Virus record (IMG/VR): IMGVR_UViG_3300031371_000009
Location: 1 to 40,715 of that record
Source: a virus
Length of the DNA: 40,715 nucleotides
Strand: one strand, 5' to 3'
Part shown: positions 1,337 to 40,536 of the stretch, one piece after another
How the letters are laid out: the number at the start of each line of letters is the position of its first letter
Position numbering within the stretch: the stretch's first letter is position 1
Translations under genes and position numbers: made by a program
Notes under the pieces: model-generated
Databases searched by the model: none
Told to the model about the DNA's origin: nothing
The model's input: the letters and a program-made list of their open reading frames with translations, nothing else

Positions 1337-4078
1337 ATGAATTTTGACAGATATTTAGAAAAAAACCTACAGTATTTAATAATAGATACTGAGGTATTGG
1401 AGGACTATTTCTCATTTCAGTATAAAAATGAGAATTCAGAAACTAAAGTTATTGAGATAGAATCCGACAAAGGGTTTAAACAGTTCTATAATCTATTAGA
1501 AAAATCTAAAAGACCTATGTATTTTTATGGCATTGATTACGACAAAGTAATTTTAAATGCTGTTTGTAAATTAGTAGAAAGTAATAGTAATGATATTAAT
1601 TATAAATTAAGAAATATAAATGATTTTATAATTAGAGGTAATATAAATTATTTTCGCTTAAATCGTGAATTTTGGGTAAATAATTATTTTAAATTTAAAA
1701 AAACGTGTCCAGAGTTAAAAAGTAAAGATTTGATAACAAGATCGATCGATAGTTTCAAAGGTAATCAAACAGAATATGACTTTTTAAATCAGCATTTGAC
1801 TATTATGGGTCAGTCTAAAGTATTTAAAAATTTAATAATTAATAGTTTACCGAAAATTAATTATTACTTTAGTGTTAGAAAGGATAAATCTTTAATACCA
1901 ACTATATCATTAAAAAATCTTCAACTTGTAAATGAAGGATATAAGATCGAATTTGATTTTAATAAATATAGAAGAATAAGTGATATAAAAAAGGATGGTA
2001 AATATGAATATTTTAATAAATATTCTAAAAATGACATAACCTCACTAGAAAAAGAGTTCTTAAAAAAACCAAAATCAGATATTATAGAGCGATTATACGC
2101 TGTAGAAGCTGTAAAGGAACTTATACCAGATTTAGAAGTATCTAAGAAAGCAATTTACAGTGAAAACAACACAGAATTAATTAATGAAATATTAAAGTTA
2201 CCAGACCATGAAGATAAAAAGGAACTAAGAGATAATTTTGATTTTGATTATACAGAATACATCAAAACACCTGATGATAAGTTTAATAGTTTTGTAGAAT
2301 TTGTTAATAATTCCAAACATATTAAAAATGATAGAGAAATAAAAGCTAATTACTGTGAGTTCTATAAACGAGAAGTTATACAAGACGACAAAGAAATTTT
2401 AAATACTTTCGGAGAAATAGAAACTCAAATTAATAGTTTTGATGAAATACATATTAAAAATAAAATAAATGATATCATAGTTAAAATGGGTTTTGGTGGG
2501 CTTCATGGAGCTATTCCAAATTATAAGTCATTGGATAAGTTATTGAAGATATTTGATTATAAATCTCAATACCCATCAATTGTATTACAGTACCCAGAAC
2601 TATTTAAACATGTCATTAACGTAGACCTGTACAGGGCTATTTATGAAAAGAGATTTAAAATAAAAGCAGAAATAAAACAATTAATTAAGGATCAAAAAGA
2701 ATATTTAATAAGAATTAATGATGGTGCAGACATAGCAGAATATGAAGCTATTGAAGATCATATTACTTACTTAACTAAAGTTGAAAAAGGATTAAAATTG
2801 ATTTTAAATACAGCTTTTGGACTTATTAACTCAAATTATAATATACCAATAGCTTGCAAAACTTTAGGTCGTTTCATATGCTTAAAAGGTCAAAGTTTGC
2901 TATTAAATCTTTGTTATAAAGTAATGAATGATTATGAAATTATCAATGTTAATACTGATGGGGTTATGGTTAATGATACAATATCTAACAAAGTAATAGA
3001 GTTCCCAACTGATGGATATTTTGAATTAGGTGTCGAAAATTTTAAAACAATGATTCAGAATGATGTTAATAATTACTTAGGGATAATGACAGATAGCAAA
3101 GTAAAACGTAAAGGTATGTATAATATAAAAATCAAACAAAAAATTAATAAGAACGAAAAATTAGCGGTCAACTTGCAAAATGCTATAAATTCTATTATTG
3201 GCAAGGAGCTTATTATTGAACCTTGTTATTTTGATAAAAAATGGTTCGACAAAGAAATTTCTAGTCAAGCCTGGTATTTTACAACTAAGGAAAAAGGTCA
3301 AACCATTATTAAAAATACAAAAAAACCAGAGATACTGTCTATTGTTGTTAATGGTATATCTCAAAACTTATATTTTACTAATGATAAATCCAAAGCTGAT
3401 TTTAAATTATATATACATTATGCTGAAATTATAAAGGACCAGCTTTTAAAATTTGAATACATTTCAAAAAATAAGATCAATAATATGTATTATGAAGAAA
3501 CATTAGAGTTCGATAGTCTAGAATTAATCAAAAGTAAGAGACAAATAAAACGCAAATTAAATAAATTATTCGATTCTATGGCAGTAGGAATGGTAGGTTA
3601 TAAGTTTAAGAACAAAGTAAACAGTTTTGTATACCGTCAGCCAATAAAGCCGCTGATACAATATACAATGACTGATATACTTAAGTCTACTTATTGTACA
3701 GGATTTTCACTCGATAATAATGTAAAGTCTGAAAAAAAGTATATTATCATAGACATAGATATTTATGATAAAAATACAGGTACAGCGAAAAAAGGCTGGG
3801 GTATAGTAAAACCTTTTATATCTGAACTAAATAAGCTTAATACATTCCAATGCTGGAATATGAAAACATTGAAATACAATAGAAAATATGTATTTCAATA
3901 TGATTTAGATTTTATTGAATTCTGGAAAAAACATTTAGAATCTAAAGTATATCCTTATATAGAACTTATAGACAAGGCAACTATATTTACACTTGAAGGA
4001 CTAGGCGATATTCAATATCAGTGCAATTGGCTAGACCCTTTAGAAGTACCCAAAGGATTATTTAAAACCTTAAAATAA
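1337..4078 (+). CDS. Family B DNA polymerase (913 aa)
   Basis: This is the replicative DNA polymerase. The N-terminus carries exonuclease-like motifs: DTE near residues 17-19 (Exo I) and YFYGIDYDKVIL (Exo II type). Polymerase motif A is DYKSQYPSI (catalytic Asp407), motif B is KLILNTAFG (Lys487, Asn491), and motif C is VNTDGVMV with Asp541. The usual DTDS of motif C is NTDG here; the second, metal-binding Asp is kept. About 300 residues follow motif C, more than a thumb needs, and include hhhDhDh (IIIDIDIYD) near residue 813, which resembles primase motif I but is unproven. With the D5 helicase, the DEAH helicase and the SSB-like protein it forms a phage-encoded replication set. Confidence 0.93.
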   Translation: MNFDRYLEKNLQYLIIDTEVLEDYFSFQYKNENSETKVIEIESDKGFKQFYNLLEKSKRPMYFYGIDYDKVILNAVCKLVESNSNDINYKLRNINDFIIRGNINYFRLNREFWVNNYFKFKKTCPELKSKDLITRSIDSFKGNQTEYDFLNQHLTIMGQSKVFKNLIINSLPKINYYFSVRKDKSLIPTISLKNLQLVNEGYKIEFDFNKYRRISDIKKDGKYEYFNKYSKNDITSLEKEFLKKPKSDIIERLYAVEAVKELIPDLEVSKKAIYSENNTELINEILKLPDHEDKKELRDNFDFDYTEYIKTPDDKFNSFVEFVNNSKHIKNDREIKANYCEFYKREVIQDDKEILNTFGEIETQINSFDEIHIKNKINDIIVKMGFGGLHGAIPNYKSLDKLLKIFDYKSQYPSIVLQYPELFKHVINVDLYRAIYEKRFKIKAEIKQLIKDQKEYLIRINDGADIAEYEAIEDHITYLTKVEKGLKLILNTAFGLINSNYNIPIACKTLGRFICLKGQSLLLNLCYKVMNDYEIINVNTDGVMVNDTISNKVIEFPTDGYFELGVENFKTMIQNDVNNYLGIMTDSKVKRKGMYNIKIKQKINKNEKLAVNLQNAINSIIGKELIIEPCYFDKKWFDKEISSQAWYFTTKEKGQTIIKNTKKPEILSIVVNGISQNLYFTNDKSKADFKLYIHYAEIIKDQLLKFEYISKNKINNMYYEETLEFDSLELIKSKRQIKRKLNKLFDSMAVGMVGYKFKNKVNSFVYRQPIKPLIQYTMTDILKSTYCTGFSLDNNVKSEKKYIIIDIDIYDKNTGTAKKGWGIVKPFISELNKLNTFQCWNMKTLKYNRKYVFQYDLDFIEFWKKHLESKVYPYIELIDKATIFTLEGLGDIQYQCNWLDPLEVPKGLFKTLK

Positions 4079-5251: not shown

Positions 5252-6769
5252 ATGAAATTAAGAGAATATCAAGAAGAATGTTTAGAGAAGATTAAAAAAG
5301 CAGGAACAGGAAAATATTTAATACAAATGGCTACTGGACTTGGAAAAACAGTAATATTTACAACACTTATAAATAATCAAACTAATTATGGAAGATGTTT
5401 GATTATATCTCATAGGGAAGAGCTAGTAAAACAGCCTTTAAAGTATATAACTAAAACTAAAGGAATCGAAATGGGAAAATATACTTCAAACCATGAAGAA
5501 ACAATATCGGGCTGTATAGCTTCACTAATTAGAAGGTATAAGAAATTTTCACCTGAATATTTTGGATTGATTATAGTAGATGAAGCCCATCACAGTGCCG
5601 CAAATTCTTATAAAAAACTTTTAGATTATTTTAAACCTAAACTATTATTAGGTTTTACAGCTACACCTAATAGAGCTGATAGTAAGAGATTAGATAAAGT
5701 ATATGATAAGATTATATATAAATATAATCTCTTAGATGGTATTAAGAATGGTTATTTATCTAATATTAGGTGTAAGAGAGTATATGTTAAGTATGACCTT
5801 AAAAACGTAAGATCACAATCAGGTGATTATAAGGTTAGTGATTTAGAAAATGAATTAATAGAGTCTGAAAATCCAAAAGCTATAGCAAAAATATATCAGG
5901 AACATGCAACAGGAGCAACTTTAATATTTGGTGTATCTGTCAAGCATTGCGAAGAAATAGCTAAAAACATAAAAGGTGCAGTCGTTGTTACTGCTGAAAC
6001 TAAGAACCGAGAACAAATAATTAAGGATTTTACCGCTGGTAAAATTAATTGTATTGTAAATTGTATGATTTTTACCGAAGGAACAGACATTCCAAAAATC
6101 AATACAATTATAATAGCCAGACCTACAAAAAATGTATCGCTGTATACACAAATTGTAGGTCGTGGGCTTCGGTTATATGATGGAAAAGAGTATTTAAATT
6201 TAATAGATTGTGTTGGTGTATCTACTGACTTAAATCTATGTACAGCACCAAGTTTACTAGGTATTGATTATAATGATGAAAAAGCACTTAAAAAGGAAAA
6301 CGAATTAGCCATGGACGTAGATTTATTTAACCTACCTGAAATAATTGAAGAAAAACAAGATCATCCCGATAACTGGAAAATTAATTATAAAGTTGTAAAC
6401 CTTTGGGCAAAAAAACAAAATTATCAATTACATAATATTAACTGGTATAAACACTCTGATGGACACTTTAGTTTATCATTGAAGAATAAAAACATTACTA
6501 CAGGTCCTATTAATGAATTAGGGTATATTACATTTAAAGGTCAACAATACGAAGCCCAAAACTTCTTTGATCGTGTATTTAAACAATTAAATACTAAATA
6601 CCCAGATCAGAAATATATTTGGGATTTGAACATAATGAAAAGCTGGGGATATAAACCAGCGTCAGAAGCTCAAATAAATCAGATTCAGAAAGCTTTACCA
6701 AATTATAATACTTATGGATTAAACAAGTTACAAGCGAGTCAGATTTTAAATAAAATTTATTCTAGATAG
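5252..6769 (+). CDS. SF2 DEAH-box helicase (505 aa)
   Basis: This ATP-dependent nucleic-acid helicase has Walker A ATGLGKT near residues 28-34, DEAHHS (Asp110) as motif II, GFTATPNR as motif III region, and the C-terminal motif VI QIVGRGLRLY. The order and length resemble phage and bacterial UvsW/RadD-type helicases that act in recombination-linked replication or repair. Residues past about 360 lack helicase motifs and contain a WDLNIMKSWGYKPAS stretch and a helical end that could bind DNA. The stop is TAG. It is read from promoter site 3. Confidence 0.92.
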   Translation: MKLREYQEECLEKIKKAGTGKYLIQMATGLGKTVIFTTLINNQTNYGRCLIISHREELVKQPLKYITKTKGIEMGKYTSNHEETISGCIASLIRRYKKFSPEYFGLIIVDEAHHSAANSYKKLLDYFKPKLLLGFTATPNRADSKRLDKVYDKIIYKYNLLDGIKNGYLSNIRCKRVYVKYDLKNVRSQSGDYKVSDLENELIESENPKAIAKIYQEHATGATLIFGVSVKHCEEIAKNIKGAVVVTAETKNREQIIKDFTAGKINCIVNCMIFTEGTDIPKINTIIIARPTKNVSLYTQIVGRGLRLYDGKEYLNLIDCVGVSTDLNLCTAPSLLGIDYNDEKALKKENELAMDVDLFNLPEIIEEKQDHPDNWKINYKVVNLWAKKQNYQLHNINWYKHSDGHFSLSLKNKNITTGPINELGYITFKGQQYEAQNFFDRVFKQLNTKYPDQKYIWDLNIMKSWGYKPASEAQINQIQKALPNYNTYGLNKLQASQILNKIYSR

Positions 6770-7257: not shown

Positions 7258-7331
7258 GGCGGTGTATCCTAGTTAGGTTAGGTGTAAGCTTCATAAGCTT
7301 AAATACGTGGGTTCAAATCCTACCACCGCAT
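7258..7331 (+). tRNA. tRNA with CAU anticodon (Met, or Ile2 after lysidine)
   Basis: The acceptor GGCGGTG pairs with CACCGC at 7324-7329 (first pair G-A mismatched). The anticodon stem TAAGC/GCTTA encloses the loop TTCATAA, giving anticodon CAU. The T arm is GTGGG-TTCAAAT-CCTAC with a 5-nt variable loop. No CCA is encoded. In AT-rich phages a CAU tRNA is often an isoleucine tRNA reading AUA once the host TilS modifies it; AUA is very frequent in this genome. Elongator or initiator Met remains possible. Confidence 0.88.
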
Positions 7332-10471: not shown

Positions 10472-11065
10472 ATGGCTAACAACGGATTTAAAAAATTATC
10501 AAAACCAGAAAAATATGTTACTGGAAGGGTTATTCTTCAATTTTCAAATTTAAAAGTACCTTATAAGCATTCAGAAAAAGCAGAACCCAAGTACACAATA
10601 ACTGTACTAATACCTAAAGAAAATAAGGACGAAATTTCTAATTTGAAAACTTTGATTAACAAACATTGGAAATTAGGAAAAATCAAAAATGGTAACATAA
10701 ACCCATTGAAAAATGGCACTGATATTTTAGAAGAAAAGAAAGATGATGGCAAAGAAATAGACCCGATAATAGCAAATTTTTATCAGTTCAAAACAAATTC
10801 TAAGTTTCCAGCTAAAGTAATTGACGCTAAGAAATTAAAATTTACTGGTGAAGAAAACGAACTAAGGGGCTACTGGTGTAGATTAAGTGTTGACTTCTAC
10901 GCATTTAAAACTGGTAGTAATACAGGTGTTACATCATTCTTCAAAGGTTGTCAGGTAATATGTCCGTCAGATGTAGAAATACCAGGCGGCGACGTTACAA
11001 ATGACTTTGACGAAGAAGAAGAAGAAAATGGAATTGATATCGATAATAATATCGAAGATATGTAA
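10472..11065 (+). CDS. DUF2815-like single-stranded DNA-binding protein (197 aa)
   Basis: Sequence and shape fit the DUF2815 phage family (T7 gp2.5-like OB fold): N-terminal VTGRVILQFSNL with YTITVLIPK, a central FYQFKTNSKFPAKVIDA, then GYWCRLSVDFYAF and the strongly acidic tail DEEEEENGIDIDNNIEDM. Such tails in SSBs recruit the polymerase and helicase. It would coat single strands during replication by the phage polymerase. It is a single gene under promoter site 6 with a structured leader and a weak hairpin after it. Confidence 0.85.
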   Translation: MANNGFKKLSKPEKYVTGRVILQFSNLKVPYKHSEKAEPKYTITVLIPKENKDEISNLKTLINKHWKLGKIKNGNINPLKNGTDILEEKKDDGKEIDPIIANFYQFKTNSKFPAKVIDAKKLKFTGEENELRGYWCRLSVDFYAFKTGSNTGVTSFFKGCQVICPSDVEIPGGDVTNDFDEEEEENGIDIDNNIEDM

Positions 11066-11215: not shown

Positions 11216-11225
11216 TTAAAAAATA

Positions 11226-11297
11226 GCTGGTATGGTTTAACTGGTAGAATCATTGTTTTGTAATCAATGGGAATGGGTTCAAGTCCTGTTACCAGCT
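11226..11297 (+). tRNA. tRNA-Thr (UGU)
   Basis: Acceptor GCTGGTA pairs fully with TACCAGC. The anticodon loop TTTGTAA gives UGU for Thr (ACA). The anticodon stem ATTG/CAAT has four pairs plus a T-T at the loop edge. T arm ATGGG-TTCAAGT-CCTGT. CCA is not encoded. ACA is the main Thr codon in this genome, so the tRNA matches phage codon use. Confidence 0.88.
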
Positions 11298-11301
11298 TTT
11301 A

Positions 11302-11812: not shown

Positions 11813-12487
11813 ATGACTAATAAAGAATTTATTAAAACATTAGAAAAGGATAATAAGAGATTGCAAGAAAAACATGAAAACGCTACTTTAAAAATTAAAC
11901 TAATGAAGGAAGAATTATTAGAAAGTCAAAATTATACAAATGAATTAGAAACTAATAACTTGGTTTATATGTCTCATAATCTTGCTTTAATGGTTGAAAA
12001 CACAGAATTAAAAGAAAAATTAGATACTTTAATAGAAGAAAATAGTTGTCTTGATGAGGATATTGATATTAAAAATATTATGGAAGAAAATAAGAAATTG
12101 AGAAAAACAATAAGCGAATTAGAAAATGATTGTATAAACGTAAAAGTACTAAGTGATAATTATAAAAATTTAAAAAATGAATATACCGAAGAAAATAAGA
12201 GATTGAGAAAAACAATAAGCGAATTAGAAAATGATTATATTGAAGTTAAAAATAAAAATCAAAACTATATTTTAGCAAATACACATTTACAGGCTGAAAA
12301 TAAAAATTTAAAGGAAGAAGTTAAACTCTTCGACATTGAAAGAAAAGATTTTAAACAAGCAATAGACTTTTATAAAAAGAAAAGTAAAAATAGGAATGAA
12401 AGTATTATACAAGAAAATGCAGAACTCAAGAAAAAACTTGAAAATATTCAAACCTATTTAAATAATACTTGTAGCTTAAATGGTTAA
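11813..12487 (+). CDS. Coiled-coil protein with internal repeat (224 aa)
   Basis: The ATG at 11813 follows AAAGGAGATAGAAAAATA, the recurring early-gene leader; an in-frame ATG at 11777 lies before that site. The protein is one long coiled coil with an exact internal repeat: RKTISELEND occurs twice, about 37 residues apart, after EENK(K/R)L. There is no signal or membrane segment. Its place in the lysis cassette gives no clear function. Confidence 0.7.
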   Translation: MTNKEFIKTLEKDNKRLQEKHENATLKIKLMKEELLESQNYTNELETNNLVYMSHNLALMVENTELKEKLDTLIEENSCLDEDIDIKNIMEENKKLRKTISELENDCINVKVLSDNYKNLKNEYTEENKRLRKTISELENDYIEVKNKNQNYILANTHLQAENKNLKEEVKLFDIERKDFKQAIDFYKKKSKNRNESIIQENAELKKKLENIQTYLNNTCSLNG

Positions 12488-16118: not shown

Positions 16119-17498
16119 ATGGCTGATAAAATCTTAGAATTAATCAAGAAAGATATTAAACAAAAGAAATGTAGGTATGAAGCTAGGAAATACTATAATT
16201 ATAAACCTAGACCATACAAGTCCAAAGAGGAATATTATTATAAAAATGGGCAAGAATACCCAGTTATACAAAAAGAAGGTGAAATATACATAAATTATTT
16301 CAAAATGTTGGTAACTCAAAAGATTGACTACATTTTGAGTAAAAAACCTTCTTATGATGAAAGAATTGACGAGTCTGGAATCAATGTATATACAATGTTA
16401 GATAAGCTATTATTTAATGCGTCATTAGACGCTAGAACTTGGTTACATTTATATTTAGCTGATAATCAATTAAATTATATTGTAATTAAAGATTCTGAGG
16501 TAATCCCTTTTTATTCTGATGATAAAAAGAAACTTATAAAACTCATTAGATATTATCAAATTGATGATATTTTGCATGTAGAAATCTGGGTTGATTCTGG
16601 TGTTAAAAGGATTCAGTATAAAAAAGATTTGGTTGTAAATGAAACTATAGAAAGTCATTATACAACTGATATTTACACTGGAAATGAATTAGATAAATCT
16701 ATAGAATCTAATTTCCCTATGATTCCATTTATTCCCTTATGGAATAATAAGGATGAAACTAGTGATATGTACGATATTGAAAATATTATAATTGCTTATA
16801 ATGCAATATGTACAGGTTTTGTGGATAACATAGACAAGTTTCAGGAAGCTCTATTAATTCTTAGAGGTTATATAGGGGATAATGAATCTATAAAGCAAGT
16901 AATGAAGGATATCAAGGAAGCTAAGGGCGTATCAGTCGACAAGGACGGCGACGCTGGATATATGACCGTAGATATTCCAGTAGAAGCTAGACAAGCAATT
17001 CTTGATATCTTAAGGGATTCTATATTTTTAATTGGTAGAGGTGTTGACCCAAGTAAATTAGCTGAAGGTACAAATATAACAAACGTTGTTTTAAAATCCC
17101 GATATATTCAATTGGATTTTAAGGCTTCGGATTGTATTAAAAGAATAATAGATTTTTATGAACAATTTGTAAACTTTATAAATTTGGTTAAAAGGTTAAA
17201 TGCTAAAAAAGACTTAGAACTCAATAAATCTATGTTAATCAATGAAGAAGAAATGATAGATAATTGTCTTAAAAGTCAAAACATGGTAAGTAGAGAGACT
17301 AATTTAAAACATCACCCATTTGTAGAAGATGTTAAGAAAGAAATTAAATTGTTAGATATCGAAGAAACAGAAAGACAAAAAATGTTTGAGTCGTCGATAA
17401 ATGACAATAATTTTAATAATAACCAAAATAATAAAAATAATCCAAAGGATAAAAATAATCCTAAAAATAACAAAAATAAACAAAATAATAATGTATAA
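16119..17498 (+). CDS. Portal protein, SPP1 gp6-like (459 aa)
   Basis: It forms the dodecameric DNA channel at one capsid vertex. The N-terminus (RYEARKYYNYKPRPYKS...INYFKMLVTQKIDYILSKKP) and central FMIPFIPLWNNKDETSDMYDIENII-type stretch fit Phage_prot_Gp6. The order TerS-TerL-portal-scaffold-capsid supports it. The last ~30 residues are almost only Asn, Lys and Pro (NNNQNNKNNPKDKNN), a low-complexity tail that is not part of the family core. Confidence 0.92.
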   Translation: MADKILELIKKDIKQKKCRYEARKYYNYKPRPYKSKEEYYYKNGQEYPVIQKEGEIYINYFKMLVTQKIDYILSKKPSYDERIDESGINVYTMLDKLLFNASLDARTWLHLYLADNQLNYIVIKDSEVIPFYSDDKKKLIKLIRYYQIDDILHVEIWVDSGVKRIQYKKDLVVNETIESHYTTDIYTGNELDKSIESNFPMIPFIPLWNNKDETSDMYDIENIIIAYNAICTGFVDNIDKFQEALLILRGYIGDNESIKQVMKDIKEAKGVSVDKDGDAGYMTVDIPVEARQAILDILRDSIFLIGRGVDPSKLAEGTNITNVVLKSRYIQLDFKASDCIKRIIDFYEQFVNFINLVKRLNAKKDLELNKSMLINEEEMIDNCLKSQNMVSRETNLKHHPFVEDVKKEIKLLDIEETERQKMFESSINDNNFNNNQNNKNNPKDKNNPKNNKNKQNNNV

Positions 17499-17520: not shown

Positions 17521-17922
17521 TAAAAAATGTAACCGCTGATAATCAGGGTTACATTTTTTGTAACCCTATCAAATGTAGTTGTATTCATAATTAGCGTATT
17601 AGGGTTACAAGAGGTTACAGAAATTTTTTAAAAGTTGTAACCTACTTAAAAGTAGTCATAGTCTAGCTTTAGACTCAAAAGGTTACAGGGTTACAACTTT
17701 TTATATAAAACAATATATACGAAAAAAAATATTAAAAATAAAATACTATATATATATAAGTATAAAGAAAAAGTTGTAACCCTGTAACTTTGACATCAAA
17801 TCGCACATTGCTCTAAGGCTAGGAGGGTTACAACGAGTTGTAACCGTTTTGTAACCCTAAATTTAAAAATCCTATACATTAGATTGTAACTGGTCTAGAT
17901 AGGGTTACAACTTTTGTAACCC
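17521..17922. repeat. GTTACA/TGTAAC repeat region A (candidate origin or centromere)
   Basis: A 600-base gap between portal and scaffold holds 16 GTTACA or TGTAAC motifs, mostly as GGGTTACAA/TTGTAACCC pairs facing each other with variable gaps. A central AT-only stretch (about 17700-17768) is flanked by a long inverted pair (17682-17702 with 17769-17789). A related copy is region B at 36987-37380, in the same orientation. Candidate roles are replication origin with DNA-unwinding core, partition site, or multi-operator control of the capsid promoter just downstream. Confidence 0.85.
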
Positions 17923-17974: not shown

Positions 17975-18003
17975 TAGACATTATAAAACCTATGTGTTAT
18001 ACT
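17975..18003 (+). promoter_or_regulatory. Probable promoter for scaffold/capsid
   Basis: TAGACA (17975-17980) and TATACT (17998-18003) with 17-bp spacer, just after repeat region A. The -35 has one mismatch. It would boost structural gene expression within the late operon. Confidence 0.6.
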
Positions 18004-18096: not shown

Positions 18097-18726
18097 ATGA
18101 GTAAACGCATTAAGGATAAGATTGGTGAGGAAAAATATAATAAAATGAAGGAACTTTTAGAAGGTTCTGGATTTGATATTAAAGATATTGACCATATACC
18201 AAATAACTTTGTACCAAAGAATAGATTTGATGAAATAAACACAAATTTAAATTCTTATAAACAAGAAGTTGAAGCTAACAAGGAACATAAGAAACAAATT
18301 AGTAAATTATTAGAAGGCACAAACGCCGAAAATGTTGGGGAATTAGTTAATACTTTTAAAAGTTTGGATGCAAACCACAAAAAAGCTATTAAGGATATTG
18401 AAACCTCAACAAATAATGAAGTTAATAACCTTAAAAAGAGTTATAAAGTTAAAGATCATTTAAGGGATAATGGAGTGACAAAAAGCAAGAATGTTGATTT
18501 GTTATATAAATCAATTGATTTAAACACAATCAATTTAGATGATAATGGTAATCTGGTAGGAATAACAGATGTCATTAAAAATTTAAAGACTGATTATAAA
18601 GAATTATTCAGTGAGACTAAATTAAATGGTAAACCACCTAAAGACACAGATAATAGTGGTGGCAAGCCTGACGGTGATGATTCAAAAGATATTTTTGATA
18701 CATTAATGGAAGGTAATCATTTATAA
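18097..18726 (+). CDS. Capsid scaffolding protein (209 aa)
   Basis: It has the scaffold composition: highly charged helices (KMKELLEGSGFDIKDI, YKQEVEANKEHKKQISKLLEG), a GVTKSKNVDLLYKSIDL segment seen in phage minor structural GP20-like scaffolds, and an acidic flexible tail (PPKDTDNSGGKPDGDDSKD). It lies directly before the capsid gene. It guides capsid assembly and is then lost. AGGAGG precedes the ATG. Confidence 0.88.
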   Translation: MSKRIKDKIGEEKYNKMKELLEGSGFDIKDIDHIPNNFVPKNRFDEINTNLNSYKQEVEANKEHKKQISKLLEGTNAENVGELVNTFKSLDANHKKAIKDIETSTNNEVNNLKKSYKVKDHLRDNGVTKSKNVDLLYKSIDLNTINLDDNGNLVGITDVIKNLKTDYKELFSETKLNGKPPKDTDNSGGKPDGDDSKDIFDTLMEGNHL

Positions 18727-18787: not shown

Positions 18788-19669
18788 ATGGCTATGAATT
18801 ATGCAAAGAAGTATTTAAAATACTTTGATGACATATACAAGAAAGAATCATTAACTAGACTATTGGAAACACCAGCAATGTCAGTTGAATTCAAAGGAGC
18901 TAATCAAGTATTGGTTAACACTTTGACTATTTCCGGTAACTTTGATTATTCAAAGTCGGCGGGGTATAGTGCTGGTAGTGCTTCTAATGCTTGGGTAGCG
19001 TATAATTTGACTATGGACAGAGGTTTAAAAATACCTTTGGACGCTGTAGACTCTGACGAAGCACTAGTAAGTGCTATGAAAATTCAGGATAACTATTTAA
19101 GGGAAAAGTTTTTCCCTGAGCTAGATTTGTTTAGATTTACAAAAATCTATACTGATTTGGCGGCTAGTGCAGTTAGTGGTACTAATATTGTATCGTCAAC
19201 ACCAACAGTTGATAACATAGTACAATTGTTAGATAATGGTATTACACTATTGAATGACGCTGAGGTTCCAATGTCTTCAAGAATTATATTTATTTCTGAA
19301 ACAAGTTATCAGAAATTGAAAGGTTCAGGCGAATTTTTCAAAATTAAGATGGCTACAGAAAAATCAAGGATTCTTGATAGAGACGTTGACACTTATGATG
19401 GGCATTTCTTAATCAGAGTGCCACAAAGTAGATTTAACACAGCGGCTACTTTTGGCGAAGGCTCTAACACAACTACTGGTGATAATATCAATTTTATGAT
19501 TTGTTATGGTCCTGCAATAATGGCTATAATCAAAAGAAATGTATTAAGGATATTTAGTCCAGAGCAAAATTTAGATGCTGATGGCTTTTTGATGACAGCT
19601 AGACAGTATCATGGGTGTAATATATACCAAAACAAAGTAGCTGGTATATACATAAATAAGGCTGAATAA
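18788..19669 (+). CDS. Major capsid protein (293 aa)
   Basis: This is the shell subunit. N-terminal MAMNYAKKYLKYFDDIYKKESLT, the LVNTLTISGNFDYSKSAGY strand region, and MDRGLKIPLDAVDSDEA are typical of HK97-fold capsids of Firmicutes phages, as is the segment PMSSRIIFISETSYQKLKGS. The length is normal and the gene follows the scaffold. GGTGATG lies before the start. Confidence 0.92.
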   Translation: MAMNYAKKYLKYFDDIYKKESLTRLLETPAMSVEFKGANQVLVNTLTISGNFDYSKSAGYSAGSASNAWVAYNLTMDRGLKIPLDAVDSDEALVSAMKIQDNYLREKFFPELDLFRFTKIYTDLAASAVSGTNIVSSTPTVDNIVQLLDNGITLLNDAEVPMSSRIIFISETSYQKLKGSGEFFKIKMATEKSRILDRDVDTYDGHFLIRVPQSRFNTAATFGEGSNTTTGDNINFMICYGPAIMAIIKRNVLRIFSPEQNLDADGFLMTARQYHGCNIYQNKVAGIYINKAE

Positions 19670-21193: not shown

Positions 21194-22240
21194 ATGAAAA
21201 TTTGTCATGTATTACCATTTTCCCCATACCGAGCAGGGTTATACGAAGCGGCTCGAGATATGATAAAGGCTGACTTTTTAGCAGGTCACGAGATTATTGT
21301 AATTGACGCTGGTATAACACAAGATGGGAAAATGGTAACCGAGGGCAAAGCGGGTCAAATAGATAAACGACCTAATTTTACATTGGTAACTGATGAAATA
21401 GACAGAATAGACGAAGCAGATATAATAATAATGCACACTGGTATTAGTGATTCATTATTAGTAAGAAATCAAACACCTTTGATTTGGGTAGTACATGGCA
21501 GACCACTGGCATGTTTCAGACCTGAGTCACAAGGAAAATCAAGTTCTTATAGTTTATATAGAAATGTAAGTAGATGGAAAAGAACTAAGAAAATGTTATA
21601 TTTTTGGCGACAATTTGAAAATCACTGGAAACCAATATTTAAAGAAAAATCATTATGTTTATATTCACCACCAATAGATAGTTTACCATTCGCAAATATA
21701 GAAAAACATGAGTTTTCAGTCAGAGGAAAGTATAATTTTCTTCTTTGTGATACAGACAGAGAAGATATTGACATATATAATACATTAATTGGATTTATGA
21801 GGGCAGGAGAAAAAATAGAGGGTCTTAAATTACACATTTATGCACTTGAATTTCCCTTAAAAGATTGCTACAACATTTTATTAGGGGAAATGAAAGAAAG
21901 AGGTTTAATAGGTGATTTAATGCCAAGGGTGACCTATTTAAACAAAGTCTATAATTCAGCGGATTGTTTGATAACACCAAATTCAATAATTACTAGAACT
22001 ATAGGTGAAGCTGTACAATCTGAGTTACCTATAATCGCTCAAAATCCCTGTAATGCTAGTTATTATACATGTGATTTTAATAATTCAAATGAATTGAGTG
22101 ATACAATTATTGAGTTTTGCCAAGATATGAATGAAGATAAAGTATCAAATAATTATGAGATTCCTAAAGCTGATATGAGCTTAGAAAATTATTCTAGACA
22201 AATGAATTTAGTATACGAAGAAATATTAGAAAGTAGGTAA
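21194..22240 (+). CDS. Glycosyltransferase, GT4-like (348 aa)
   Basis: The ATG at 21194 follows AAGGAG; the GTG at 21185 overlaps that site. N-terminal MKICHVLPFSPYRAGLYEAARDM matches the first Rossmann strand and glycine loop of GT-B enzymes; YLNKVYNSADCLITPNS and IGEAVQSELPIIAQ match the donor-binding EX7E region in changed form. It would move a sugar from a nucleotide donor to an acceptor. Its place between the Ser/Thr repeat protein and the head-tail genes suggests it glycosylates the repeat protein or another virion protein. Confidence 0.82.
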   Translation: MKICHVLPFSPYRAGLYEAARDMIKADFLAGHEIIVIDAGITQDGKMVTEGKAGQIDKRPNFTLVTDEIDRIDEADIIIMHTGISDSLLVRNQTPLIWVVHGRPLACFRPESQGKSSSYSLYRNVSRWKRTKKMLYFWRQFENHWKPIFKEKSLCLYSPPIDSLPFANIEKHEFSVRGKYNFLLCDTDREDIDIYNTLIGFMRAGEKIEGLKLHIYALEFPLKDCYNILLGEMKERGLIGDLMPRVTYLNKVYNSADCLITPNSIITRTIGEAVQSELPIIAQNPCNASYYTCDFNNSNELSDTIIEFCQDMNEDKVSNNYEIPKADMSLENYSRQMNLVYEEILESR

Positions 22241-22244
22241 TGTC

Positions 22245-22577
22245 ATGAGTTACAATTATACAGATAATACCTCACAATTTCATAGATTGCTTGATAGAAA
22301 TATTAATTCAGCTTTGAATGAAATGGGTAAGTTTGGTGTAAAAAAACTAACTAAACATGCCGCCAAAGATACAGGTTTTATGAGGTCTAGAAATGATTAT
22401 AAAGTAACAATGGGTAAGTGGGTTGACATTGGTAATTATGGCTGTGATTATTCAATTTTCCAAGAATTTGGAACTTATAAAATGACAGGTCAGCCATTTG
22501 TTAGACCAACAGCATTTAATTATCAAAATGATTTTATAAGAATCTTTAAAAGAGAAATAGCAAAAGGAATAAGGTGA
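22245..22577 (+). CDS. Head-tail connector, HK97 gp10-like (110 aa)
   Basis: The segment KFGVKKLTKHAAKDTGFMRSR and YSIFQEFGTYKMTGQPFVRPTAF is the HK97-gp10 signature (DTG.L..S, then E.GT...P.PF..PA). The protein lies at the neck or tail-terminator ring. It starts 4 bp after the glycosyltransferase with a poor ribosome site, so it may rely on coupling. Confidence 0.9.
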   Translation: MSYNYTDNTSQFHRLLDRNINSALNEMGKFGVKKLTKHAAKDTGFMRSRNDYKVTMGKWVDIGNYGCDYSIFQEFGTYKMTGQPFVRPTAFNYQNDFIRIFKREIAKGIR

Positions 22578-33045: not shown

Positions 33046-33746
33046 AATTATATGATAGTTTATTAAATAAAAGAACTAAGGACGCTTTTAGAATTGCAAA
33101 TGTTTCAAGTGTAAGTCCTTTACAAATTAAATTATATCCGTCGGATAATGCTATTCCAGCAAATTCTATTATTGGTTTGGTAGGTCTTAAGGTTGGTAGT
33201 ACTGTAATTATGGTATATTACAAGAATAAATTTACAATTATAGGTGTTATTGGTACACCTATAATTGTAGATAGTACTAAAAAAGTTATTGTAAAACAAG
33301 CTTCGCAAGGTTCTACTACGGCTTCTAGTTTTACAACTGATAGTGAATTATCAGCAACTTTAGAACCAAATAAATTATATAAAGTACATTTTAATCTTGT
33401 TGTTAATAATAGCAGTGGTACACCTGACATGTTAATAAATTTTATACCTAGTGGCACAATTACTCTTTATGGTAGTATACATTTTCGGTGTATGTCAGTT
33501 AATGGTACTAACGCCGCCGCTTATGAAGAAGGAAAAACGTCATGTTATACAAGCATTGACGCAGATATATACATAGGATTGGCTAGTGGTTATGGTTCTG
33601 CTAGAGGTACAATGCTATTAAAAGGTGGTGCTAGTGGTGGGGCAATAGGTGTTAAATTTAAGCAAAGATATACAGACGGTGCAAACGCTTCATATATTCG
33701 AGTAGGCTCTTACATAGAATATTATGAAGTACAAGAAATAACTTAA
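33030..33746 (+). CDS. Tail tip / receptor-binding protein (238 aa)
   Basis: Residues 1-85 form an OB-like domain (LYDSLLNKRTKDAFRIANVSSVSPLQIKL, VGLKVGSTVIMVYYKNKFTIIG), as in baseplate spike or hub partners. The rest (TASSFTTDSELSATLEPNKL, SIHFRCMSVNGTNAAAYEEG, GASGGAIGVKFKQRYTDGAN) is beta-rich and resembles C-terminal heads of phage tail fibres, so it probably binds the receptor. It is the last late gene before the terminator. GGAGGGTT lies in the gene before it. Confidence 0.7.
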   Translation: MAEFIELYDSLLNKRTKDAFRIANVSSVSPLQIKLYPSDNAIPANSIIGLVGLKVGSTVIMVYYKNKFTIIGVIGTPIIVDSTKKVIVKQASQGSTTASSFTTDSELSATLEPNKLYKVHFNLVVNNSSGTPDMLINFIPSGTITLYGSIHFRCMSVNGTNAAAYEEGKTSCYTSIDADIYIGLASGYGSARGTMLLKGGASGGAIGVKFKQRYTDGANASYIRVGSYIEYYEVQEIT

Positions 33747-33838: not shown

Positions 33839-34576
33839 TCAAATATCTATATATTTAGCAAGTAAATAAATTATGAATCCAATAAATATTATAAACAAAC
33901 TAAAAATTATTTTAAAATAATTATCATTTTCACCAGCTTGCGGTAATACACTACTAGATATAACATTAATCGGTGTTGGTGTTTCTGTTGTAACCTCAGT
34001 AAGTACAGGTGTTACGGTTGGTGTTATAACAGGTGTTGCGGTTGGGGTAGCTGTAGGTTCTATAGTTGGCGTGGCTGTAGGTGTTATAGTTGGTGTGGGT
34101 GATTCAGTAATAACAGGTGTTGCGGTTGGTGTTGGAGTCGGTCCATAGGGTTCAGTTTTAAATCGAAAATAATAATTTATATCATAATTATCATATGGTC
34201 TATATTCAGGATTAAGTTTAATATTTGTTAATACTATATGTGTATAAATGTAGCCATTCCTAACCTTTAAAGGTTTTGTAATTTCCCCTGTCCATTGCAA
34301 AGTTCTATTTTCATCATAACTTTGCATTTTAATATAAATTTCAGGATTTGTCGTAATTTTTGACTCTAAAAGTTTAATCGGTTCACCATTTAATTCTATA
34401 ATAGAATTAAACACAGGTTGAGGGATTATTAAAGTCCATGGAGTCATTTCCTTAAATGTTACCTTATAATTTTGGTCTTCTTGTGCGTAACAATTATTTG
34501 TAAATCCAAATATTACGCACAAAAATATTAGTAATATTATAAAGTAAATTGCAATTCTAAGCTTTTTGTTAATCAT
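33839..34576 (-). CDS. Secreted surface protein with LPxTG-like sorting signal (245 aa)
   Basis: The protein starts with a lipid-like signal segment (MINKKLRIAIYFIILLIFLCVIFGF, predicted cleavage near CYAQ), then a compact domain of about 100 residues (VTFKEMTPWTLIIPQPVFNS). Next is a Pro/Thr linker (TPTPTATPVITESPTPTIT... near 150-205), then LPQAG (211-215), a membrane span and the short end AKYIDI. This is the order of a sortase-anchored wall protein, with Ala where Thr is usual. It would be shown on the infected cell surface, e.g. for exclusion of other phages or as a toxin-like decoration. Confidence 0.75.
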   Translation of the reverse strand: MINKKLRIAIYFIILLIFLCVIFGFTNNCYAQEDQNYKVTFKEMTPWTLIIPQPVFNSIIELNGEPIKLLESKITTNPEIYIKMQSYDENRTLQWTGEITKPLKVRNGYIYTHIVLTNIKLNPEYRPYDNYDINYYFRFKTEPYGPTPTPTATPVITESPTPTITPTATPTIEPTATPTATPVITPTVTPVLTEVTTETPTPINVISSSVLPQAGENDNYFKIIFSLFIIFIGFIIYLLAKYIDI

Positions 34577-35604: not shown

Positions 35605-36144
35605 TTAAAAATCTCCTTTTGTTATTATTTGTATTGTTGGTGTTAATATACCTTGTACAATATACTTAAATTTGATATATGCACCGAATTTTACAGGAAT
35701 GTATAGATACATTCTATGTAAGTTATCTAAAGTATAATAAAAAGTTTTGGACCTATTTAATCTTAACATTAATTTCAATAAATCGGCATTATACATAAAT
35801 TTTGAATCATCTACTTTTATGTATTCATCAGGGTATTGTTGATACATTTTCAATACCTGTAATTGCTGTTTATCACACTTAAACAATCCTATATTATTTA
35901 TATTTTTCATTAATCTATATTTAGAATCAAATTGTGATTTTGGAACTATTATTCTTGTATTTCTCCAATTGATTATAGATAGAGGAGAAATACAAAATTT
36001 ATAGTTGTATCTCTCATTTTCTATTAAAACTGTATAATCATGAAAGCCATTATACAGTTTTAAATTTCCACAATTGAAAGTTAAATATTGGTCATATACT
36101 TTTTTAGCCAATTTTGAACTCGTCCTTAAATTTCCAAATATCAC
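35605..36144 (-). CDS. Hypothetical protein (up to 179 aa)
   Basis: The GTG at 36144 lies in the end of the next gene and has no clear ribosome site; a TTG at 36111 behind AAGGACGAG is an alternative start. The body (YNYKFCISPLSIINWRNTRIIVPKSQFDSKYRLMKN) is beta/alpha and aromatic. Region KMYQQYPDEYIKVDDSKFMYNADLLKLMLRLN suggests helical packing. No family is recognised. Confidence 0.6.
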   Translation of the reverse strand: MIFGNLRTSSKLAKKVYDQYLTFNCGNLKLYNGFHDYTVLIENERYNYKFCISPLSIINWRNTRIIVPKSQFDSKYRLMKNINNIGLFKCDKQQLQVLKMYQQYPDEYIKVDDSKFMYNADLLKLMLRLNRSKTFYYTLDNLHRMYLYIPVKFGAYIKFKYIVQGILTPTIQIITKGDF

Positions 36145-36526
36145 AATCTTTTCGTTCTATATAGTTCCTGCTACCTAATATATTAAAAACTTTGTCTACA
36201 TGTATTTTTCTTAATTCAATAAATTGAGCAAAGTATATTAAGAAAAAACAATCGTTTCTATCAGGGTCCAAATGATATAGTTTTTTAAGGTTTAAGAGCT
36301 GTTTTTTATCCTTTGCTTGCATATACCACTTGTAACCTTTTTCTTTCTCCTTGGCGTCAAAAAGTAGTGTTTTTGAAGGTGTTATGATTATATAGTCAAA
36401 AGGTTCACCTTCTATATATATGCCTTTATGATTTCGATTTGCGTTATTTTTCCAACCGAATCCTTGATTTGTTTTGTTTACATAGTCTATTAGCTTGTTA
36501 ATTTGATTTTCCAAAAAATTTTTCAT
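36104..36526 (-). CDS. RecU-like Holliday-junction resolvase (140 aa)
   Basis: The core FDYIIITPSKTLLFDAKEKEKG matches the PD-(D/E)xK motifs of RecU (Asp...Asp-x-Lys), and the following KDKKQLLNLKKLYHLDP... DCFFLIYFAQF matches its C-terminal helix and strand. The N-terminal GFGWKNNANRNHKGIYIEGEPFD carries the loop before the first Asp. RecU cuts four-way junctions and would resolve phage recombination intermediates before packaging. It lies in the minus cassette. Confidence 0.78.
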   Translation of the reverse strand: MKNFLENQINKLIDYVNKTNQGFGWKNNANRNHKGIYIEGEPFDYIIITPSKTLLFDAKEKEKGYKWYMQAKDKKQLLNLKKLYHLDPDRNDCFFLIYFAQFIELRKIHVDKVFNILGSRNYIERKDCDIWKFKDEFKIG

Positions 36527-36937: not shown

Positions 36938-36966
36938 ATTATAATACATTTAGTTATAGTTGTCAA
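36938..36966 (-). promoter_or_regulatory. Promoter of the minus-strand cassette
   Basis: On the minus strand TTGACA (36966-36961) and TATAAT (36943-36938) are 17 bp apart. TAACT and AGTTA arms flank the -10, a distant relative of the early operator. It lies 22 bp from the first GTTACA of region B. Confidence 0.82.
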
Positions 36967-36986: not shown

Positions 36987-37380
36987 AAGTTACAAAAAAG
37001 TTGTAACCCTGTTTAATGTACTATTAATCATACATACAGCAGTTGAATTGTTTAGGGTTACAACAGGTTACAGAAATTTTTTAAAAGTTGTAACCCTATC
37101 AAATGTAGTCGTGTTCTTAATCTAACGAGTTAGGGTTACAGGGTTACAACTTTTTATATAAAAAACTATATACGAAAAAAAAATTTATAAAAATAAAATA
37201 CTATATATATATATAAGTATAGAGAAAAAGTTGTAACCCTGTAACCTTAGCACTAAATCATTGATCGCTCTAAGGCTACAAGGGTTACAACGAGTTGTAA
37301 CCGTTTTGTAACCCTAAAATTAAAAACTGTACACATTAGATTGTTACTGGTCTACATAGGGTTACAACTTTTGTAACCCT
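36987..37380. repeat. GTTACA/TGTAAC repeat region B (candidate origin or centromere)
   Basis: Fourteen GTTACA/TGTAAC motifs between the minus promoter and the D5 helicase gene. From about 37056 it is a clear copy of region A: GGGTTACAA, GGTTACAGAAATTTTTTAA, the AT-only core (37149-37225), the inverted pair around it, and the terminal AGGGTTACAACTTTTGTAACC. Modules are permuted: the piece TAACCCTATCAAATGTAGT precedes them in A and follows the first ones in B. The site next to the D5-like helicase is typical for a replication origin. Confidence 0.85.
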
Positions 37381-37486: not shown

Positions 37487-37514
37487 AAAATTTAAAAGCG
37501 GAGGTGTTGTGGTA

Positions 37515-39461
37515 ATGAATGACACAAACAATAAGAAATTATACATTATAGAATATGATATAGATTCTATATTAATAAACGACACTTTATCAGAAAAAAT
37601 CTATAATGATATAGATAAATATATCGATATAGAGATTAATTATTTAAAGGATAAAGGATTTAAATTTATAGAGAAGAAGGATGAAACACAGTTAATATTT
37701 TGTTTTGATTTAAATTTAAATAAAAACAAATTTAAAAATATTCCGATCGGTTTTATTTCTGAATGTGACAGTGATTACAACAGATTAGATCATTCAAAAT
37801 ATAAGTATGAATTAAAGCAGAAAATCGTTGATAAACGGTTAGAAGCTATTAAAACCGTTTTTGATGATATGGGTATAAATTATTCAATGAAATCTGATGG
37901 AGCTGAATATTCTTGTCATGTTTGTAAAAAAGATAATATGAAATGTAAGATATTTACTTCATTTATTACAAATACATTTTCTAAAAATGATTGTACAGAC
38001 GAAAAACACCAACGAGAATTTAAGAAACTTAAGAAAAAGTGTCAGGACGTATATAATGAATTAAAAAATGATATTTTAGGTATTTATAACTTAGATGTCG
38101 ATAGAATTAGGGAAATTGTTAATACTCATTTTCCTAAGATCAAAAGGGATAAAAATTCAGGTGATTTATATTATTATAGTGAAATAAATAAATATTATAA
38201 AGTATTAATTGATGAGAAAAATAATTCAATGTTAAACGCACTTATTAGAAAGTATTTTTTTCATGACGTTTTAGGTGATATATTCACATTAAACACTAAG
38301 GACATGAACGATTTGAGAAATGTTTTATATGATATGGTTTTCGTAGAAGTTTCAGAACCCATAACTGACGATTATATATGTCTGAATAATGGCGTGTATG
38401 ATATAAAAAATAAGTCTCTAATAGATCATGATTCAGAGTTATTTTTTATTAATAAATTAGAGATAGACTATAATCCTAAATTGGGTTATAAGTTCGTAGA
38501 AGATTTATGCAACGATTGGAAAATAGAATCAGATGAATTTAAAAGAATGTTAGGTTATTGCTTCACATCTGATTATTCACAGGAAAAAATATTTATTATG
38601 AATGGTTTAGGTGGTTCAGGCAAAGGCACTTCTATGGAAATATTAAACCAATTGTTAAAAGGTAAAACAATTGGTTGTGATATAGAAGATATCAGCAAAG
38701 GATTTGCTCCAACTGGTATTGAGAATGCTACTACCATGATAGATTATGATTTTGATTCTGAGACATTCTATAGAGTTTCAGTCAAGAAATTAAATAAATA
38801 CTGTGATGGTTCAGAAATTTATGTTGACAGAAAGTATAAACAAGGCTTTTATATAGAAGGAAAATTAAAACCTATAATATGTACCAATGAGTTGCCAAAT
38901 TTAAAACTTAATACAGATAATCTTGGATACTATAGAAGATTGTATGTATTTGATTTTAAAAATCAGTTTAAGGAAGGAAAAAATCAAAATTTTAATTTAA
39001 AAAATCTTATTAAAACAGATAGTAAATGTAGGTCTGAAATGTTAAACTTTTTAATTTCAGCGATACATTTATATCATGACAGAGATATCACAAAACCATT
39101 TTTTAAGAATCAGGACGATTTAAAATTAAAACAACAGGCTGAATCAAATCCTACAATAGAATATATCTTAGATAGTTTTGAAAAAACAAGTGTATCTGAT
39201 GAAATCAAAGAAAATTATAGATTAAGTTGGTCTGAAATAATAGAACACTACAACAAATATGCTGAATCAATGAACTTTTCAGCAATGCAAAAACGTAAGC
39301 TTAAAAAGCTATTTAAACAGTATTTACACATTATAGATAATGATTTAGATAGAGTTTTAAAAATAAAAGGTAAACCAACTAGGTGTATAATGAATATAAG
39401 ATTTAAAAATGACGATAACGACATTTCTAAAGATTTTTCTGAACATGAAACGGAAATGTAA
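37515..39461 (+). CDS. D5-like SF3 helicase / primase (648 aa)
   Basis: The ATG at 37515 is 8 bases after GGAGGTG; the GTG at 37509 is too close. The C-terminal half is a superfamily 3 helicase: Walker A GLGGSGKGT (about 364-372), ATTMIDYDFDSETF as Walker B, and sensor CTNELPNL followed by YYRRLYVFDF. The flanking N-terminal domain of D5 type (YDMVFVEVSEPITDDYICLNNGVYDI) is present. The first ~190 residues have CHVCKKDNMKC, perhaps a zinc site, and no clear primase triad. It would unwind the phage DNA at region B or A for the family B polymerase. Confidence 0.9.
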   Translation: MNDTNNKKLYIIEYDIDSILINDTLSEKIYNDIDKYIDIEINYLKDKGFKFIEKKDETQLIFCFDLNLNKNKFKNIPIGFISECDSDYNRLDHSKYKYELKQKIVDKRLEAIKTVFDDMGINYSMKSDGAEYSCHVCKKDNMKCKIFTSFITNTFSKNDCTDEKHQREFKKLKKKCQDVYNELKNDILGIYNLDVDRIREIVNTHFPKIKRDKNSGDLYYYSEINKYYKVLIDEKNNSMLNALIRKYFFHDVLGDIFTLNTKDMNDLRNVLYDMVFVEVSEPITDDYICLNNGVYDIKNKSLIDHDSELFFINKLEIDYNPKLGYKFVEDLCNDWKIESDEFKRMLGYCFTSDYSQEKIFIMNGLGGSGKGTSMEILNQLLKGKTIGCDIEDISKGFAPTGIENATTMIDYDFDSETFYRVSVKKLNKYCDGSEIYVDRKYKQGFYIEGKLKPIICTNELPNLKLNTDNLGYYRRLYVFDFKNQFKEGKNQNFNLKNLIKTDSKCRSEMLNFLISAIHLYHDRDITKPFFKNQDDLKLKQQAESNPTIEYILDSFEKTSVSDEIKENYRLSWSEIIEHYNKYAESMNFSAMQKRKLKKLFKQYLHIIDNDLDRVLKIKGKPTRCIMNIRFKNDDNDISKDFSEHETEM

Positions 39462-40128: not shown

Positions 40129-40536
40129 ATGAATTTTTATAAAAATGATAAAGTTTTTATCGTCGGAAACGACGACGATATGGTAAGTATAGGTGGAATA
40201 CATAACTTTGATTCAGATGAAGCCTTAGAAGAAAACTTTGGAAGAAAATTTGATTACTGTAGATGTTGGGATGATTCTATTATTGGTAGAATCAGAGAAA
40301 TTGGTAAAAATGACTTTTATCTTATTGAAGACTTAGAAAATCCATACAAAGTTTATGTATATAATAATGACTATAGAGAAATGCACAAAATATCAAATTT
40401 AGTTACTGAGAATAAAAGGCTTGAAAAAGTAGAATTACAACTCGAAGCTTTGGAAGCGGCGGGCGTAGATAATTGGGATGGATACAGCTATGCTATGGAA
40501 TTATTAGAAAAATTAGAAAAAGGAGAAGATATATAA
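40129..40536 (+). CDS. Hypothetical protein (135 aa)
   Basis: AAAGGAGATAGAAAAATT precedes the ATG. The first ~85 residues form a beta-rich domain (NDKVFIVGNDDDMVSIGGIH, WDDSIIGRIREIGKNDFYLIED) like an SH3-type barrel; the rest is a coiled coil (ENKRLEKVELQLEALEAAGV). It overlaps the RyR gene by 1 base (TAATG). No family is recognised. Confidence 0.72.
   Translation: MNFYKNDKVFIVGNDDDMVSIGGIHNFDSDEALEENFGRKFDYCRCWDDSIIGRIREIGKNDFYLIEDLENPYKVYVYNNDYREMHKISNLVTENKRLEKVELQLEALEAAGVDNWDGYSYAMELLEKLEKGEDI

Follow-up and report, generated by a model that had tools for sequence, protein, structure and literature searches.

Why would a phage carry the same AT-cored repeat locus twice, on nearly opposite sides of its genome? 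We examined this question in the window (the whole 40,715-bp stretch of viral DNA analysed here), where the two loci, A and B, have the following parts:

Locus A, 17528-17922, plus strand: 16 GTTAC sites flanking an AT core, in the portal/scaffold intergenic region
Locus B, 36987-37380, plus strand: 15 GTTAC sites flanking an AT core, adjoining the D5-like helicase gene; proposed primary origin
AT core of A, 17696-17774, unstranded: 79 bp, 10% GC; presumed unwinding element
AT core of B, 37149-37231, unstranded: 83 bp, 11% GC
Left inner doublet of A, 17682-17695, plus strand: GTTACAGGGTTACA
Right inner doublet of A, 17775-17788, minus strand: TGTAACCCTGTAAC as read on the plus strand

Exact GTTACA/TGTAAC motifs number 16 in A and 14 in B, as the initial annotation had counted, and B has one additional GTTACT. 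The window contains 51 exact copies, where 27.3 (s.d. 4.8) are expected, and 0 of 100 shuffles reached 51 or more. Outside A and B, the density of GTTAC/GTAAC is at most six per 450-bp stretch. Both loci follow the same plan, with GTTACAGGGTTACA, the AT core, the inverted TGTAACCCTGTAAC and then more sites outward, which confirms an earlier description of a common core and inverted inner pair. They align in the same orientation with 85% identity over ~350 bp, and all 31 sites together give the rough consensus AGGGTTACAACTTTT. Six site pairs of A are mirror-symmetric about one centre to within 2 bp, a number reached in 1 of 5000 random placements (P ~0.0002). The same test on B gave P 0.16; the mirror centres of its inner and outer pairs are offset by 10-12 bp in position sum, which would correspond to roughly one helical turn gained by the left arm. 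BLAST returned no match for A among phage records or for B among plasmid records, and an exact search of viral contigs for the right-arm palindrome found nothing.

Other repeats were also noted. A ~60-bp element in about seven copies (approximately 755, 4086, 5175, 7150, 8810, 10310 and 39480 of the window) consists of a TTGACA-17-TATACT promoter and a palindromic operator of the TTAACTTGAGTATAGTATACTTAAGTTAA type before early genes, and looks like one regulon. These dispersed repeats were rejected as additional binding sites, being promoters. Dense repeats of the GTACCTAGCAACTTT type occupy positions 300-564 and could be a further origin or a recombination site. The otherwise distant phage G002 has their TAGCAA unit as well (L024, ~22168-22518), positioned where an anchor-like gene rich in Pro/Thr has its 3′ end.

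An exact 127-bp terminal repeat in the window record gives a 40,588-bp circle, on which corresponding points of A and B are 19,453 bp apart, or 0.479 of the circle. The reported spacing of ~19,450 bp and the nearly diametric arrangement are thus correct, and the arrangement is weak evidence alone, because two random points fall this near to opposite about 4% of the time. Recombination between the loci into two circles had also been suggested; the longest exact tract they have in common is 38 bp, which makes this possible in principle, but the proposed 20-kb circles find no support. Skew, offered as a check for origins, places none: GC and AT skew track gene direction, and skew at fourfold sites in the window likewise follows the gene strand.

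The genes and promoter-like sites that bear on the two loci are:

Portal protein gene (SPP1_portal), 16119-17498, plus strand: left neighbour of A
Promoter-like TAGACA-17-TATACT between A and the scaffold gene, 17975-18003, plus strand: a consensus match alone, 10/12
Scaffold protein gene, 18097-18726, plus strand: right neighbour of A
RecU-like Holliday-junction resolvase, 36104-36526, minus strand: under the Pfam cut-off, with support from PHROG 843
Promoter-like TTGACA-17-TATAAT, perfect, pointing from B into the minus-strand genes, 36938-36966, minus strand: a consensus match alone
D5-like primase-helicase, 37509-39461, plus strand: D5_N and DUF5906 above the Pfam cut-off, Walker A GLGGSGKGT; proposed origin binder/opener
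C-terminal VLKIKGKPTRCIMNI motif region of the helicase, 39348-39398, plus strand: common to helicases beside the GGTTACA dyad in other phages
DNA polymerase, replication module, 1337-4078, plus strand: PHROG 1252, with motifs that look family B-like
ResIII/SF2-type helicase, replication module, 5252-6769, plus strand
Enc34-type ssDNA-binding protein, replication module, 10472-11065, plus strand

B is flanked by leftward genes, including that for the RecU-like resolvase (a candidate partner in recombination-dependent replication), and by the rightward gene for the D5_N/DUF5906 primase-helicase. The likelier start of the latter is the ATG at 37515, after GGAGGT; B ends ~130 bp before the gene start and therefore lies 5′ of it. 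A division of the circle by A and B into a structural-gene half and a replication half is roughly right, but lysis, terminase and portal genes are on the replication side of A. Elsewhere in the window, the C-terminal part of the product of 40129-40536 (plus strand) matches the RecBCD inhibitor family of T7 gp5.9 (Pfam E 1e-12); the relatives of this phage look Gram-positive. A 245-aa protein encoded at 33839-34576 (minus strand) has a signal-like start, Pro/Thr repeats and a C-terminal LPQAG with a membrane segment, and resembles a sortase-anchored surface protein. The early region includes genes for tRNA-Met (CAT, 7258-7331) and tRNA-Thr (TGT, 11225-11298).

The differences between A and B are unevenly distributed. 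Identical positions make up 88/89 of the sites, 74/79 of the core and 119/162 of the spacers, leaving 1, 5 and 43 mismatches, respectively (Fisher p against spacers, 1.7e-8 for sites and 1.3e-4 for the core). As sites and core are far better kept than spacers, both copies look maintained by selection, which is the simplest reading of the mismatch pattern.

To place the loci among other viruses we defined a GGTTACA-dyad group by GTTACAGGGTTACA, an AT-richer core of 72-99 bp and an inverted TGTAAC arm, the array lying beside an initiator-type helicase with the motif K[VI].G...R. Dyad and core are present in both A and B; B adjoins such a helicase, on its 5′ side, and the neighbours of A are portal and scaffold genes. 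A search with both doublets exact gave 4 other viral contigs plus a single contig of a bacterial genome. Requiring just one exact doublet gave 19 other viral contigs, among them the first four and the doubtful, repetitive match L042. Most of these contigs have 7-15 sites in similar order and cores of 72-99 bp with GC below that of the record, the distance from inner doublet to next site recurs at 43-45 bp, and the array in most starts no more than ~250 bp from the 3′ end of a large ORF. Pfam assigns 12 of the 13 large flanking ORFs scanned to families of initiator helicases or primases, the exception (L034) having weak AAA matches alone: four are DUF927 with HTH_56 (the Cch helix-turn-helix), one D5_N with DUF5906, one VapE with DUF5906, one NrS-1-like with DUF5906, four DUF5906 with or without a primase-like domain, and one Prim-Pol with PriCT_1. 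The arrays of L034, L042, L050, L053 and the Ruminococcus contigs have no identified initiator helicase alongside.

Arthrobacter phage Wayne (L054, by protein match), an isolate grown on a laboratory strain, is a named carrier of the dyad; its array, at 33275-33564 of KU160672, is 3′ of gp45. Ruminococcus phage phiRg507T2_3 and Thermoanaerobacterium phage THSA-485A have related GTTAC arrays 3′ of a DUF927/MCM-like helicase, and in Alteromonas phage R9Y1 the related array is 5′ of the primase/helicase. Nearly all other dyads are 3′ of the helicase gene, whereas B is 5′ of its own. Every viral GGTTACA-dyad record that was searched over its full length has a single array, so the duplicated pair is the unusual feature of the window. 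Two GGTTACA dyads on different contigs were found in a bacterial genome, the Ruminococcus metagenome-assembled genome G015 (L055 3292-3489 and L056 8547-8691), one of them flanked by genes for pyruvate:ferredoxin oxidoreductase and spoIIID and without an adjoining helicase.

The dyad-adjoining helicases have the C-terminal motif K[VI].G...R in common; the window protein has it as VLKIKGKPTRCIMNI, and a DUF927 protein as KINGTATRCACI. We built an HMM from the C-terminal 140 residues of 14 dyad-adjoining helicases, excluding the window protein, and searched it against 242 window ORFs. The D5-like protein was the sole match, with an E-value of 1.1e-5 against 0.36 for the runner-up. Helicases that adjoin other arrays served as controls: those of L019 and L029 (GGGACT arrays) and of L036, L039 and L021 (further arrays) scored at most 0.8 bits. 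The HMM search did not report two more controls, L037 and L038, although GTTAC sites and, on visual inspection, a similar motif are present in L037, the Alteromonas phage. On leaving out one member at a time, matches were weak in 5 of 13 cases (E 0.1-0.4). Because of these cases and the missed Alteromonas helicase, the HMM is suggestive, a lead rather than proof. AlphaFold models of the full helicase and of its C-terminal 150 residues were uninformative (mean pLDDT 51), and a sequence search against solved structures returned no match. The D5-like query retrieved no close relatives, and alignments of portal, polymerase and helicase yielded few.

We infer, with a probability of roughly 0.74, that A and B duplicate a single site of replication-origin type that serves the phage's own D5-like primase-helicase, B being primary and A a second copy. 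This reading builds on the anatomy and symmetry of the loci, their selective conservation, the recurrence of the dyad beside initiator helicases and the protein match. Among the roles first proposed for the pair, two replication origins made of iterons and an unwinding core appears the best supported by the sequence data; it is favoured because many unrelated phages have the dyad where an initiator-helicase gene has its 3′ end, and because the D5-like protein alone has a matching C-terminus in the window. That both copies fire is a prediction. GGTTACA would be recognised by the C-terminal domain of the helicase, and the mirror-image arrays around the AT core fit its loading as two facing rings. 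The AT core would then melt, and the phage DNA polymerase could extend from there. B, ~130 bp before the helicase gene, would be the primary origin. By analogy with SPP1, A may be a late or second origin, or an oriR-like site at which bound initiator halts forks and switches replication to concatemer synthesis; in either case it would be a selectively maintained copy.

Loss of an array in related phages with gene order unaffected had been put forward as evidence against a role for the pair, and here the picture is mixed. In the portal/scaffold interval, G006 (polymerase 51% identical) and G008 lack an array, and nothing was found there in G008; gene order is kept in both. In G008 and L029 (D5-like proteins, 27-28% identity), GGGACT motifs flank an AT core in an array located 3′ of the helicase. 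Such GGGACT/AGTCCC arrays (L019 9288-9875; L029 ~11893-12479) are directly 3′ of D5-like helicases that do not have the GGTTACA-associated C-terminal motif. In G006, a quasi-palindrome of 255 bp contains an AT core (L021, 10225-10479; 76% identical to its own reverse complement), possibly the G006 origin, with quite different repeats. A G006 pair at 12333 and 33182 was rejected as a diametric twin, being within coding sequence. In the third relative, G002, the slot after the portal gene is occupied by a Rep_3 iteron replicon that is unrelated to A, and another adjoins the helicase gene:

G002 Rep_3 replicons, L023: 894-1691 and 18082-19131; iterons, 1772-1835 and 19199-19283

These replicons have 21-bp iterons, and the one after the portal gene is 0.464 of the circle from the one beside the primase-helicase.

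The main alternative for A is a two-part origin as in satellite phage P4, which has an ori/crr two-region arrangement. B would be the origin proper, and A a required or stimulating crr-like cis element that is looped to B by the helicase and does not fire alone. A and B have the same repeats, as do ori and crr, both of which P4 needs, and both A and B are conserved, which would suit this model. We nevertheless consider it unlikely: the AT core of A is complete, beyond mere binding sites, and the distance of 19.5 kb far exceeds that between ori and crr in P4, which is much shorter. Moreover, other dyad phages have a single array, so a second site is no general need. The precedent for repeat binding is the P4 alpha protein, whose winged-helix domain binds repeats (PMC4234260); papers that by their titles concern two replicons in P4 are cited in PMC6092414.

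It is less probable still that the arrays are operators, at which the helicase or another phage protein would regulate transcription, of the head genes from A and of the helicase and minus-strand genes from B, with replication secondary or elsewhere. Promoter-like sites do lie beside both loci (36938-36966, minus strand, perfect; 17975-18003, plus strand, 10/12), and the paired-site hairpins resemble weak terminators. However, an operator would need far less than a 79-83-bp AT core and as many as 16 sites, dyads elsewhere are 3′ of helicase genes with no shared promoter position, and the early promoters of this phage have a different palindromic operator. We give least credence to A as a passive, recent and functionless duplicate of B. 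The single array in dyad phages searched whole and the empty position of A in G006 and G008 would agree with this, but the concentration of A/B mismatches in spacers (43/162), with nearly none in sites (1/89), is not what a neutral copy or simple gene conversion would produce. A partition-like pair was dropped, as ParA/ParB-type proteins were not found among the window proteins scanned with Pfam, a set that leaves out some small and tail ORFs.

A search of open papers for GGTTACA as a phage origin motif returned nothing relevant. The kind of site is already known; the duplicated pair, and the use of one dyad across helicase families, look new. More tentatively, at odds that we would place somewhat short of even, the GGTTACA dyad may be one origin code across DUF927, D5/DUF5906, VapE and Prim-Pol helicases, read through an exchangeable C-terminal recognition domain in phages whose hosts range from Clostridia to Arthrobacter; in the window phage it would have been doubled into a two-origin chromosome, with the second copy in the late-gene slot of SPP1 oriR. 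Full-size tailed phages from several bacterial groups carry the dyad, whose site is readable and for which there is a candidate recognition motif, so phage origins could become predictable from sequence, and it can be asked directly which helicase domain reads them. The duplicated pair also provides a handle on the long-standing question of whether a second, late origin fires, blocks forks or assists.

Among known systems, the closest in anatomy are the origins of PICIs, which always have two iteron sets around an AT-rich region (PMC6092414). In SaPI Rep and SCCmec Cch2, a C-terminal domain of the helicase binds the iterons of a gene-adjacent origin, and SaPI Rep apparently acts as two hexamers (PMC7581432). 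Origins of the PICI/SaPI type are further characterised by autonomous replication from rep together with ori. A and B likewise have two sets of short repeats around an AT-rich segment, and the candidate cognate initiator is a Rep/Pri-Rep-type helicase with D5_N and DUF5906 above the cut-off (PMC6092414, PMC7581432); the counterpart of C-terminal recognition would be the C-terminal profile match (E 1.1e-5). PICI/SaPI origins lie directly 3′ of the helicase gene, whereas B is ~130 bp before it and A 19.5 kb away. The window also differs in having two copies of the site, the repeat GGTTACA and a full 40.6-kb tailed phage genome with its own polymerase.

Rep_3 iteron replicons (G002; also L008, L010 and L011) resemble the window in having an iteron array in the slot after the portal gene, with a second beside the helicase in G002. 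They differ in their Rep3_N/Rep3_C initiator, tandem 21-bp iterons and, in G002, two different replicons rather than two copies of one; no Rep_3 initiator gene was found among the window proteins scanned with Pfam. Satellite phage P4 is similar in its helicase initiator, winged-helix binding of repeats (PMC4234260) and more than one cis region, but differs in repeats and primase type.

The arrangement of the pair resembles that of SPP1, which has two origins, with oriR between the portal and scaffold genes (PMC6316719). SPP1 replicates by theta from oriL, and forks that meet initiator bound at oriR are thought to trigger the switch to concatemers (PMC6316719, PMC3485210). Both phages have two similar loci of repeats and AT-rich DNA, one in or beside the initiator gene and one between portal and scaffold genes, and both encode a Holliday-junction resolvase (PMC6316719, PMC3485210). 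No initiator, loader or DnaB-type helicase of the G38P/G39P/G40P type was found among the window proteins scanned. Unlike in SPP1, the sites in the window are mirror-imaged, and the two loci are 19.5 kb apart rather than 12-13 kb.
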